Positions 779-5,256 of a DNA stretch of 64,000 nucleotides are shown here, in pieces. Location: positions 62,001 through 126,000 of the forward strand of contig JAQTZE010000003.1 in the NCBI GenBank assembly GCA_028687935.1. The letters run 5' to 3'. How positions within the stretch are numbered: position 1 is the first letter of the stretch; each line of letters opens with the position of its first letter. The notes under the pieces were generated by a model. That model was not told the origin of the DNA. It worked only from the letters and a program-made list of their open reading frames with translations, and made no database searches. This stretch comes from Sulfurimonas sp. (lineage in GTDB: Bacteria; Campylobacterota; Campylobacteria; Campylobacterales; Sulfurimonadaceae). The position numbers and the translations under genes are program-made.

Positions 779-1705
779 ATGATGCAAATTGTTCTTCTTG
801 ATACCCTGACTTTTGGTGATACGGATCTTAGTGGATTTGCTGCGCTTGGAGAAGTAGAAGCGTATCAGACGAGTACCGCTCATGAAGTGCAAACACGCAT
901 AACAAACGCAGATGTTATCGTAACAAACAAAGTTGTTATAACGGATGCGCATATGCAAAACGCAAGCCACCTCAAGCTTATCTGTGTGGCGGCGACGGGT
1001 ACAAATAATGTTGACCTAAACGCAGCAAACGCAAGAGGCATCGTGGTCAAAAATGTAGCAGGCTACTCAACGGACTCTGTAATTCAGCATACTTTTTCTA
1101 TGCTCTTTTATCTTATGGGGCACTCTCGCTACTATGATGAAGTAGTCAAAGACGGCACCTATTCACGTAGTCCTATTTTTACTGATGTTTCTAAACCTTT
1201 TTTTGAGATCAAAGGCAAAAAGTGGGGCATCATCGGTTTAGGAGAGATTGGTCGAGGGGTTGCAAAAATTGCTGCTGCGTTTGGAGCAGAGATTTTTTAC
1301 TACTCTACAAGCGGACAAAACAGAAGTGATGATTTTCAAAGAACAACATTAGATGCACTTTTAAAAACCTGCGATATTATCTCTATTCATGCCCCTTTAA
1401 ATGAAAAAACAACCAACCTTTTAGACTATGAACAGTTGTTAACTTGTAAGGATGGAGCAGTTGTTTTAAACCTTGGGCGCGGGGGAATCATCAATGAAGA
1501 GGCAGTTGCGCGTATCGTAGATGAGAAAAAAATCTCCTTTGGTTTGGACGTGCTTACAAAAGAACCAATGCTAGAAAATCATCCGTTTTTTTGTGTCAAA
1601 AATCAAGAAAATCTCTATGTCACACCGCATATCGCTTGGACTTCTGTTGAGGCGAGAGAGAAACTCATAGCACTCACGATAGAGAATATTGCATCGCTGA
1701 ACTAG
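779..1705 (+). CDS. D-2-hydroxyacid dehydrogenase (glycerate/hydroxypyruvate reductase-like)
   Basis: A 308-residue NAD(P)-dependent D-2-hydroxyacid dehydrogenase, normal in length for the family. The Rossmann signature GLGEIGRG lies at residues 153-160. The catalytic triad appears as Arg234 (NLGRGG), Glu262 (KEP) and His284 (PHIAW). HprA-like members reduce hydroxypyruvate or glyoxylate, but substrate cannot be read from sequence, so no symbol is given. Two ATGs (779, 782) are possible starts and neither has a clear Shine-Dalgarno. Its 3' end overlaps the reading frame of the next gene, whose N-terminal coding appears to begin inside this gene. Confidence 0.88.
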   Translation: MMQIVLLDTLTFGDTDLSGFAALGEVEAYQTSTAHEVQTRITNADVIVTNKVVITDAHMQNASHLKLICVAATGTNNVDLNAANARGIVVKNVAGYSTDSVIQHTFSMLFYLMGHSRYYDEVVKDGTYSRSPIFTDVSKPFFEIKGKKWGIIGLGEIGRGVAKIAAAFGAEIFYYSTSGQNRSDDFQRTTLDALLKTCDIISIHAPLNEKTTNLLDYEQLLTCKDGAVVLNLGRGGIINEEAVARIVDEKKISFGLDVLTKEPMLENHPFFCVKNQENLYVTPHIAWTSVEAREKLIALTIENIASLN

Positions 1706-2149: not shown

Positions 2150-3769
2150 ATGAGAAGCGATGTTTTAATCATAGGAGCAGGTGGAGCTGGATTGGTAGCG
2201 GCTCTTGCTGCGAATGAAGCCGGCGCAAAAGTGCGTGTCATCACAAAAGAGTATCCAACACGAAGTCAGACTTCTATGGCGCAGGGCGGTATAAACGCAG
2301 CCTTAGGAAACGCAGGTGCGGACAGTGTCGAAGCACATATCCAAAACACGCTCAAGTCTGCACACGGCATGGCAAACGAAGAAGCGGTGCGTTATCTCTG
2401 CGAAGAGGCGCCCAAAGCTATTGAGTGGCTTGATAGTATCGGCGTCTGTTTTTCTCGTACAAAAGAGTCCAAAATCGCGCAAAGAACACTTGGTGGGGCT
2501 TCAGCTCCTCGCGCTTGTTACGCGCAGGATTATACGGGTCTCAAAATCCTTCACACGCTTTATGATAGATGTCTTGAAGCGGGTATCGAGATACTTTCTG
2601 AGCGTTATCTACTGAACTTCATCGTCAATCATGACCAATATGACAAAGCTTATGTCGGTGGAGCAACCGCGCTCAATATCCAAAGTGGAGAGGTAGAAAT
2701 CTATGAGAGCGCTTCTGTCATAGTAGCAACGGGTGGATATAGCCGTATTTATGACAAACACTCGACTAACTCTACAAGCTCAACGGGTGATGGCATCGCT
2801 GCGGCAATCCGCGCAGGTGCACGGCTAAGTGACATGGAATTTGTGCAGTTTCACCCCACAGCGCTCAAAAACTCCTCCATACTTATCTCGGAGAGTGCCA
2901 GAGGTGCGGGTGGCTATCTTGTCAATTCTAAGGGCGAGCGTTTTACAAATGAACTCGCACCCAGAGATGAAGTGGCGCGCGCTATCAACGATGAGATAAA
3001 CAAAGGTGAAGAGGTCTTTTTGGACATCCGACATTTGGGCGAAGCTTTTATCGATGAAGAGTTACCACAAGAGCGAAAACTCGCAAAACTCTATGAAAAT
3101 GTAGATCCTGTTTATGACCTGATTCCCGTAAAACCAGCAGCGCACTATACGATGGGCGGGATTGAAGTCGATAAAAACTCTCACTCAAAACTCAAAGGAC
3201 TTTTTGCCGCAGGCGAATGTGCTAACCATAAAGTCCACGGTGCTAACCGTTTGGGTGGAAACTCACTTTTAGAGTTAGTCGTCTTTGGCAAACAAGCTGG
3301 TCTAAACGCAGCTGCGTTTGCAAAGAAATTTGACAAGCCAATTGATACTTTAATGCAAAAGACAAGTGCAAATAACTTTGTAAAAGGTGTGAAATACTTT
3401 ACAAACCAGATAGATTTTTATGAAAAACGCAGCTTCATCGGCAAGATTTTTTATAACAATGCTGGGATAAGTCGTGATGACATGGGACTCAAAGCTGTTC
3501 TTGGTGCTGTGCGTCAGATACAAAGAGAGATCCCTTTTATGGGTCCAAAAGATAAGTCCAATATCTGTAATACAAACCTTATCGAGTTTATAGAGTTTGG
3601 CAATATGGTCGAGCTTTGCGAAATTATTTTGGTCTGTGCTATCAGCAGAAATGAGAGTCGTGGCGCGCACTATAGAAGCGATATTCCGCAGGCAAATGAT
3701 ATGGCCTACAAAGCACACACGATCACATGGAAAGAAGACGGCGTTTTGTGTGCCGACTTTATGGAGTAG
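2150..3769 (+). CDS. Fumarate reductase/succinate dehydrogenase-like flavoprotein subunit
   Basis: A 539-residue complex II-type flavoprotein that interconverts fumarate and succinate. The FAD dinucleotide motif GAGGAG is at residues 9-14. Substrate-site segments FHPTAL, SARGAGGYLVN, HYTMGGI and GANRLGGNSLLE are all present. The histidine that normally carries covalent FAD (RSHT in E. coli FrdA) is glutamine here (TRSQTSMAQGG, Gln40), so FAD is predicted to be non-covalent. ATG at 2150 follows a good AGAGGG site. The gene is followed after 3 bases by the iron-sulfur subunit. No membrane-anchor gene follows, so electron partner and direction are open. L-aspartate oxidase shares the fold but would not be paired with a FeS subunit. 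Confidence 0.85.
   Translation: MRSDVLIIGAGGAGLVAALAANEAGAKVRVITKEYPTRSQTSMAQGGINAALGNAGADSVEAHIQNTLKSAHGMANEEAVRYLCEEAPKAIEWLDSIGVCFSRTKESKIAQRTLGGASAPRACYAQDYTGLKILHTLYDRCLEAGIEILSERYLLNFIVNHDQYDKAYVGGATALNIQSGEVEIYESASVIVATGGYSRIYDKHSTNSTSSTGDGIAAAIRAGARLSDMEFVQFHPTALKNSSILISESARGAGGYLVNSKGERFTNELAPRDEVARAINDEINKGEEVFLDIRHLGEAFIDEELPQERKLAKLYENVDPVYDLIPVKPAAHYTMGGIEVDKNSHSKLKGLFAAGECANHKVHGANRLGGNSLLELVVFGKQAGLNAAAFAKKFDKPIDTLMQKTSANNFVKGVKYFTNQIDFYEKRSFIGKIFYNNAGISRDDMGLKAVLGAVRQIQREIPFMGPKDKSNICNTNLIEFIEFGNMVELCEIILVCAISRNESRGAHYRSDIPQANDMAYKAHTITWKEDGVLCADFME
3304..3319. repeat. 16-bp perfect palindrome made of two abutting AAACGCAG words
   Basis: Inside the flavoprotein gene the sequence AAACGCAGCTGCGTTT is a perfect 16-bp palindrome formed by two copies of the over-represented word head to head. 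It is in frame and encodes Asn-Ala-Ala-Ala-Phe. Confidence 0.85.
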
Positions 3770-3772
3770 AAG

Positions 3773-4501
3773 ATGAAAGTACAGATAAAAAGATATGTCA
3801 GCGAGCCTGAAGTCAAAGAGGCACTTTTAGAGTATGAAGTCGCACTCCAAAACGCAACTCTGCTTGAACTTTTACAAGAGATAAAAACCAAACAAGATGC
3901 TTCTCTCTCTTTTTCAAGCGGATGTAGAAGCAGTGTTTGTGGCAGCTGTTCGATGCGTGTCAACGGCAAAGAGGTGTTAGCGTGTTCTTATAAAGTCCAA
4001 GAGGGCGATATCATCGAGCCGCTCAAAAATGTGCCTGTGCTTCGTGATCTTATTGTTGACATGAACAAATCCTATGCCTTTAATGCAAAAGCAAAAGCGT
4101 GGCTGAGTTCACTCACACAAAATGCAGCTCTCTCGCCTGAAGATGAGAAGATAAACGAGGTTCAGAGTGACTGTATCCTCTGTGGTTCGTGTTATAGTGC
4201 TTGTCCTGTTTATAGCGTCAATGAAGAGTTCTTGGGTCCATTTGCCCTGACAAGAGTCTGGAAATATGTAGGCGACAAACGCGAGAGTGATAACGTGAGC
4301 AAACTTGATGTTATTCAGACAAACGGTGTTTGGGATTGTACGCTTTGTAATGAGTGTACGATTGTTTGTCCGCAAAATATCTCAAGCAAATCTGACATAG
4401 AGAAACTTCGCTCAAAATCTGTGATGGCAGGCTATAAAGACCCTAGTTTTGCCAACAATTTTGGTGGTGGTTTTGGGTTTGATGGAAGCCCTTCCTTTTA
4501 A
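3773..4501 (+). CDS. Fumarate reductase/succinate dehydrogenase-like iron-sulfur subunit, E-type-like cysteine pattern
   Basis: A 242-residue FeS subunit of the complex II family. The N-terminal ferredoxin domain has the 2Fe-2S cysteines (CRSSVCGSC and a later LAC). The C-terminal domain has CILCGSCYSACP and CTLCNECTIVCP. In canonical SdhB/FrdB the second motif has a hydrophobic residue at the second position (E. coli FrdB CTFVGYC) and binds 3Fe-4S. Here that position is Cys, which is expected to give a second 4Fe-4S cluster, as in E-type enzymes of Sulfolobus. The tail is glycine/phenylalanine-rich (NNFGGGFGFDG), which I cannot explain. The gene is followed by a 257-base non-coding region rather than a membrane subunit. 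Confidence 0.85.
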   Translation: MKVQIKRYVSEPEVKEALLEYEVALQNATLLELLQEIKTKQDASLSFSSGCRSSVCGSCSMRVNGKEVLACSYKVQEGDIIEPLKNVPVLRDLIVDMNKSYAFNAKAKAWLSSLTQNAALSPEDEKINEVQSDCILCGSCYSACPVYSVNEEFLGPFALTRVWKYVGDKRESDNVSKLDVIQTNGVWDCTLCNECTIVCPQNISSKSDIEKLRSKSVMAGYKDPSFANNFGGGFGFDGSPSF

Positions 4502-4758: not shown

Positions 4759-5256
4759 ATGGCGAAAGAATATTCATTTGATATTAGTGCGAAAATAAAT
4801 ATGCAGAGTTTTAAAGATGCTATAAACCTCGTGGATCGCGAAGTGGCAAATCGTTATGACTTCAAAGGGACTCCTTTTGAAGTGAATTATAAAGAAAAAG
4901 ATAAGCAGCTAGTGTTAGTAGCTTCGAGTGATAACAAACTCGATGCACTCAAAGATGTTGTTATCGCAAAGCTTTTAAAACAAGGACTCTCATCAAAAGT
5001 ACTTGAGGAACAAAAAACAGAAGATGCAAGTGGTGGGACGAGAAAAGCGACTTTTAAAATTGTTGACTATATCGAGTCTAAAGAGGCGAAAAAGATAACA
5101 GCTGAGATAAAAAACCTCAAACTCAAAGTAAATGCACAGATAGAAGGGGATTCTATCCGTGTCAAGGGTGCTAAACTTGATGATTTGCAAACAGTGATTG
5201 CGACAATCCGTTCTATGGAATGGGAAGCACCGCTTGTTTTTGAAAACATGAGATAA
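4759..5256 (+). CDS. yajQ: YajQ family nucleotide-binding protein
   Basis: A 165-residue soluble protein with the family opening (EYSFDISAKINMQ), followed by NRYDFKGT and the C-terminal KGAKLDDLQTVI segment. YajQ proteins are two ferredoxin-like domains; in Xanthomonas and Pseudomonas, members bind c-di-GMP and modulate transcription factors. Whether this one binds c-di-GMP is not visible, but the window is rich in c-di-GMP enzymes. It has its own TATAAT promoter and a good ribosome site. The next gene begins 7 bases after its stop, so the two are probably one transcript. Confidence 0.9.
   Translation: MAKEYSFDISAKINMQSFKDAINLVDREVANRYDFKGTPFEVNYKEKDKQLVLVASSDNKLDALKDVVIAKLLKQGLSSKVLEEQKTEDASGGTRKATFKIVDYIESKEAKKITAEIKNLKLKVNAQIEGDSIRVKGAKLDDLQTVIATIRSMEWEAPLVFENMR

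Follow-up and report, generated by a model that had tools for sequence, protein, structure and literature searches.

A pair of adjacent genes in a Sulfurimonas genome encodes a complex II-type flavoprotein (A) and an iron-sulphur protein (B), with no membrane anchor gene beside them. On balance we think it probable that the two proteins form a soluble, cytoplasmic fumarate reductase that binds its FAD non-covalently and serves the reductive TCA cycle. In the Campylobacterota of vents and sediments, the source of electrons for CO2 fixation (quinone pool or soluble carriers) hinges on the fumarate-to-succinate step, and the question becomes testable with an anchorless enzyme that is conserved and has an altered flavin site. 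The pair is also a natural case in which to ask what purpose the covalent FAD bond serves.

The gene pair and its conservation

The window, by which we mean the whole 64,000-nucleotide stretch analysed, belongs to a Campylobacterota genome of 2.58 Mb in 42 contigs. It contains the following features.

779..1705, + strand: D-2-hydroxyacid dehydrogenase gene, a conserved neighbour of A in several families (NF006263, above cut-off)
2150..3769, + strand: A subunit, complex II-type flavoprotein of 539 aa without a Tat-type N-terminal extension (FAD_binding_2, Succ_DH_flav_C)
2267..2269, + strand: codon CAG for Gln40, at the position of the FAD-linking His (alignment)
2489..2491, + strand: codon for Leu114, where E. 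coli FrdA (numbered from Met) has the conserved active-site Phe F117 (alignment)
3773..4501, + strand: B subunit, FeS protein of 242 aa with ligand sets for one 2Fe-2S and two 4Fe-4S clusters (motifs; TIGR00384 above cut-off)
4346..4348, + strand: codon TGT for the extra Cys192 of CTLCNEC (alignment; found in every aligned orthologue of B)

The sequence-only reading had described a two-gene complex II-like pair at 2150-4501, and both open reading frames, 539 and 242 aa long and 3 bp apart, are indeed there. An AlphaFold model of the A subunit (mean pLDDT 89.8) superimposes on E. coli FrdA (1kf6) over 529 residues at 1.7 A with a Z score of 54.5, which is the full-length FrdA fold; together with FAD_binding_2, Succ_DH_flav_C and the dicarboxylate ligands this places A in the complex II flavoprotein superfamily. 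The model of B had a mean pLDDT of 47.6 and was left out of the analysis. B itself scores 196.4 bits against TIGR00384 (dhsB; cut-off 88) and has the 2Fe-2S and dicluster domains. Solved structures matched by sequence were those of complex II and NadB and nothing beyond. With dN/dS against the nearest relative at about 0.04 for A and about 0.08 for B, both genes are under purifying selection.

Most genomes of the genus have an orthologue of B at 66-88% identity, and about a dozen others in the order have one at 48-57%; orthologues of A are distributed in the same way; a search of plasmids for the pair returned distant homologues only, below 60% identity. Gene order is conserved in the genus, running from purT through the D-2-hydroxyacid dehydrogenase and a VTT protein to A, B, yajQ and an HTH protein. 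The two subunits lie on separate contigs in four genomes (G040, G047, G054 and G059). In three of the four the 2-hydroxyacid dehydrogenase gene still adjoins A (L156, L157 and L158), overlapping it by 8 bases in L156 and L157. We found no conserved electron-donor gene near the pair; this dehydrogenase, its sole conserved oxidoreductase neighbour, is at most a candidate associate.

Flavin site and active site of the A subunit

The earlier proposal that Gln40 stands in place of the FAD-linking histidine is borne out by alignment. Gln40 falls opposite H45 of E. coli FrdA and SdhA (numbered from Met), and the position is occupied by Gln in 23 of 24 orthologous A subunits and by Asn in the other; conservation of Gln or Asn across all 24 rules out a sequencing error at this codon. 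The MFR of Wolinella, which has Ala here, binds FAD non-covalently and does not oxidise succinate, and E. coli and yeast variants lacking the histidine likewise hold FAD non-covalently and lose succinate oxidation (PMC2680327). Covalent attachment lifts the FAD potential by about 100 mV, as is needed for succinate oxidation (PMC10238741). By analogy, the FAD of the A subunit is predicted to be non-covalently bound, and the precedent of the Wolinella enzyme makes the flavin-site change more telling about the pair than the extra cysteine in B. A histidine introduced into MFR (variant A86H) made that protein fluorescent under UV on SDS-PAGE. An SdhE/SDHAF2 flavinylation factor (PF03937) was not found in the source genome, an absence that is uninformative since the other two flavoproteins keep their histidine.

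As judged from the alignment, the active site carries a third conserved change beyond those in the flavin and cluster ligands: the Phe is replaced by Leu in 22 of 24 orthologues and by Met in two. The active-site Thr is usually Ser. Six residues of A (H235, E248, R251, R272, H332 and R367), the equivalents of dicarboxylate and hydride-transfer positions in E. coli FrdA, SdhA and NadB, are invariant in the orthologues.

Co-occurrence with ATP-citrate lyase and the proposed role

We compared the pair with ATP-citrate lyase, scored as AclA (PF16114; matches with E above 1e-6 not counted), in 298 genomes that are at least 90% complete. Kinship ignored, 62 genomes have both, nine the pair only, 14 AclA only and 213 neither; a genus-level Fisher test gives p 5.5e-5, a value that ignores phylogeny and is confounded by shared ancestry. 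The pair is present in 48 of the 57 AclA-positive genomes that lack FrdABC. Conversely, every pair-bearing genome without FrdABC has AclA (48/48), and every pair-bearing genome without AclA, most of them from family f9, has FrdABC (9/9). Again with kinship ignored, this co-occurrence ties the pair to the reductive TCA cycle, as befits a soluble fumarate reductase. Nine AclA-positive genomes without FrdABC (seven from family f16, plus G045 and G250) have no pair, so it is not strictly needed for the cycle; loci read from families f16 and f13 (L154 and L153) contain another Frd-like complex.

In five f9 genomes that lack a full ATP-citrate lyase (G257, G289, G303, G308 and G338), three of them carrying the pair, Citrate_bind weakly matches proteins of about 390-400 aa, which are possibly other CoA ligases.

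The effects of histidine loss in other enzymes, taken with the pathway link, favour a one-way fumarate reductase. In the mechanism that we propose, a soluble donor, for which ferredoxin or NAD(P)H acting via a partner is our guess, would pass electrons to B, whose clusters (one 2Fe-2S and two 4Fe-4S, as predicted from the ligand motifs) would relay them to the non-covalent FAD of A, where fumarate would be reduced to succinate. The missing His-FAD bond would keep the flavin potential low and confine the enzyme essentially to the reducing direction. In the reductive TCA cycle the pair would carry out the fumarate step in place of the quinol-linked FrdABC or as its backup; succinate oxidation would fall to a separate, histidine-bearing and quinone-linked SdhABE. 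A soluble NADH-dependent fumarate reductase operates in the reductive TCA cycle of Hydrogenobacter thermophilus.

The change from Phe to Leu or Met could instead mean a different substrate, the pair reducing another unsaturated acid such as mesaconate or crotonate, or sharing a pathway with its neighbour, the 2-hydroxyacid dehydrogenase. MFR also has Met at this position, and the title of a paper on the C. jejuni Mfr, as cited in PMC6682613, names fumarate, mesaconate and crotonate as substrates. The persistence of the 2-hydroxyacid dehydrogenase beside A when B is elsewhere points the same way, as do the nine genomes with the pair and no ATP-citrate lyase. However, the remaining C4-dicarboxylate ligands are all kept, the tie to autotrophy and to the absence of FrdABC is tight, and Leu at the Phe position also occurs in a histidine-bearing group of relatives (Desulfoscipio, Pelotomaculum and a Syntrophobacteraceae MAG). 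We consider such an alternative substrate or pathway unlikely.

The anchor question and the FeS subunit

That no membrane subunit follows the pair, as the sequence-only reading stated, holds both here and in the relatives: the next gene after B is yajQ/DUF520 at 4759, and no anchor gene was seen beside the pair in the window, in the genus loci, in the split-pair loci or in the other relatives' loci that were read. The pair therefore differs from the membrane-bound classes A-F, in which an anchor is encoded with the catalytic subunits (a comparison made on linked loci only) and in which, MFR excepted, the FAD histidine is present where the pair has Gln or Asn.

The same reading called the pair an orphan, and this is true in the sense that no anchor is linked to it; other complex II operons, two in number and each complete, are nevertheless present in the genome. 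Contig 26 carries an SdhABE operon whose SdhA has the FAD histidine (SHSGAAQGG) and no Tat-type extension, whose extended SdhB has the extra cysteine (CVKCMEC) and whose SdhE has two CCG domains. On contig 41 lies an FrdCAB operon with the FAD histidine and a 3Fe-4S-type motif (CMTLLGC). Covalent-type homologues with their own anchors thus exist elsewhere, but as separate operons with FeS subunits of their own.

The extra cysteine in CTLCNEC, which the sequence-only reading had also noticed, is C192: the motif C189-T-L-C192-N-E-C195-TIV-C199 aligns with CTFVGYCSEVC of E. coli FrdB, and the residue is present in 29 of 29 orthologous B subunits aligned. The argument from it about the cluster is correct, but the feature is not special. 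It is known from E-type enzymes (PMC2680327), and since the SdhABE of the same genome has it as well, the extra cysteine is by itself ordinary.

Could A and B then serve as catalytic subunits docked on the CCG subunit SdhE of SdhABE, or on an unrecognised anchor, in a quinone-linked enzyme? Such an SdhE is encoded in the same genome, and the extra cysteine is common to E-type enzymes. Yet in the loci sampled, FeS subunits that work with a separately encoded SdhE are 315-349 aa long and have a C-terminal extension, whereas the B subunits of the pair, at 225-266 aa, lack it and resemble in size the FeS subunits of membrane-anchored enzymes. The SdhABE operon, moreover, has its own A and B. Sharing an anchor with another complex is unlikely because, of the 71 genomes among the 298 that carry the pair, 48 lack FrdABC and thus have no FrdC to lend. 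Docking of this kind therefore seems to us rather improbable. The earlier reading had allowed for a soluble or a separately anchored reductase; the evidence supports the former and disfavours the latter.

An ordinary succinate dehydrogenase or fumarate reductase, with a neutral Gln40 and an anchor encoded elsewhere, would fit the overall fold and sequence but is very improbable given Gln or Asn in all orthologues, the loss of succinate oxidation on loss of the histidine in characterised enzymes (PMC2680327, PMC10238741) and the same 48 genomes with no FrdABC anchor to borrow.

Phylogeny and relation to known enzymes

In the main tree of A (70 sequences, rooted on NadB with long branches) the A subunits of the pair form a single clade with support 100/99; all the histidine-bearing complex II enzymes sampled, and MFR, fall in another (100/99), leaving the clade of the pair outside. 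An AU test rejects (p 3e-6) a union with the histidine-bearing ABE enzymes found in Nautilia-like, Thiomargarita and Chlorobi-like genomes, and an origin from an SdhABE operon that lost its E gene is thereby ruled out. A grouping with the Campylobacterota orphan flavoproteins that have Asn is allowed (p 0.58), and the two were placed together in a second quick tree that included a Tfr-like sequence (SH-aLRT 83). With the root placed on long-branch NadB, the lineage may have lost the FAD histidine or may never have had it.

An enzyme of this kind had already been proposed from genome data. According to PMC4674564, Sievert et al. 2008 proposed that a two-subunit enzyme of Sulfurimonas denitrificans is cytoplasmic and acts in the reductive TCA cycle. 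An FrdAB encoded by two genes is reported for a related organism in PMC4674564; of the two complexes in S. denitrificans, PMC2628731 implies that one has no anchor. Like the pair, the S. denitrificans fumarate reductase comes from a Campylobacterota autotroph and is anchorless with two subunits; the two very probably belong to the same orthologous group. As a genome-based suggestion, then, both the enzyme without an anchor and its role were known before, and the pair is a better-defined variant and not a discovery. In the S. denitrificans reports we found no mention of the residues at the FAD and the clusters, of the clade or of the pattern of co-occurrence. To the earlier suggestion we add that the changes at the flavin, the Phe and the cluster are conserved, that the A subunits form a clade apart, that the FeS subunit is short and that the distribution complements that of FrdABC. 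No biochemical study of the pair was found in the literature searched. More tentatively, we suggest that the pair represents an anchorless class of complex II, confined so far to Campylobacterota and lying outside the covalent-FAD lineages (possibly never covalent), that may replace the quinol-linked FrdABC in most of the phylum's autotrophs and make the fumarate step soluble and uncoupled from the quinone pool.

Several known enzymes share some of these features. The 8-methylmenaquinol:fumarate reductase MfrABE (MFR), which is the SdhABE of Wolinella and of Campylobacter (PMC2680327), has also lost the FAD histidine and replaced the Phe, and it has the extra cysteine, but it differs in its Tat export, CCG subunit E, quinol site and separate branch; the A subunit of the pair scores 441 bits against an MFR flavoprotein cut-off of 1100 and has neither the N-terminal extension nor an adjacent CCG partner. 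The thiol:fumarate reductase TfrAB is a two-gene complex with the extra cysteine in its FeS subunit, but TfrB has fused CCG domains, which B lacks, and A reaches 404 of the 718 bits of the TfrA cut-off; the Tfr-like genes of one archaeon (L184) differ in having His at the FAD position and in branching apart. The class E SdhABE of the same genome shares the extra cysteine and the complex II fold and is set apart by its FAD histidine, extended FeS subunit and CCG subunit. The flavoprotein NadB shares the fold, is soluble and likewise lacks the FAD histidine, but it has no FeS partner. The absence from A of Glu121 of L-aspartate oxidase, Leu at the equivalent position, and the presence of a separate NadB in the genome rule out an L-aspartate oxidase-like function.

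In an order-level set of 60 genomes, G046 alone exceeds the cut-off for the MFR flavoprotein; those SdhABE flavoproteins that were sampled elsewhere in the set have the FAD histidine and are probably not MFR. In a Nautilia-like locus (L154:6613-9683) a histidine-type A and a 236-aa B are split by a kinase-like open reading frame with no CCG subunit nearby, and in its relative L153 A, B and CCG are all present. The source genome also encodes, on contig 30 (L050:1935-3599), an orphan complex II-like flavoprotein of 554 aa with Asn at the FAD-histidine position and no FeS partner. Its gene adjoins those of an aldo/keto reductase and a GAF/sigma-54-type activator, an arrangement similar to that in L159, and the protein falls in a clade with Nautilia-like proteins (L171 and L175).
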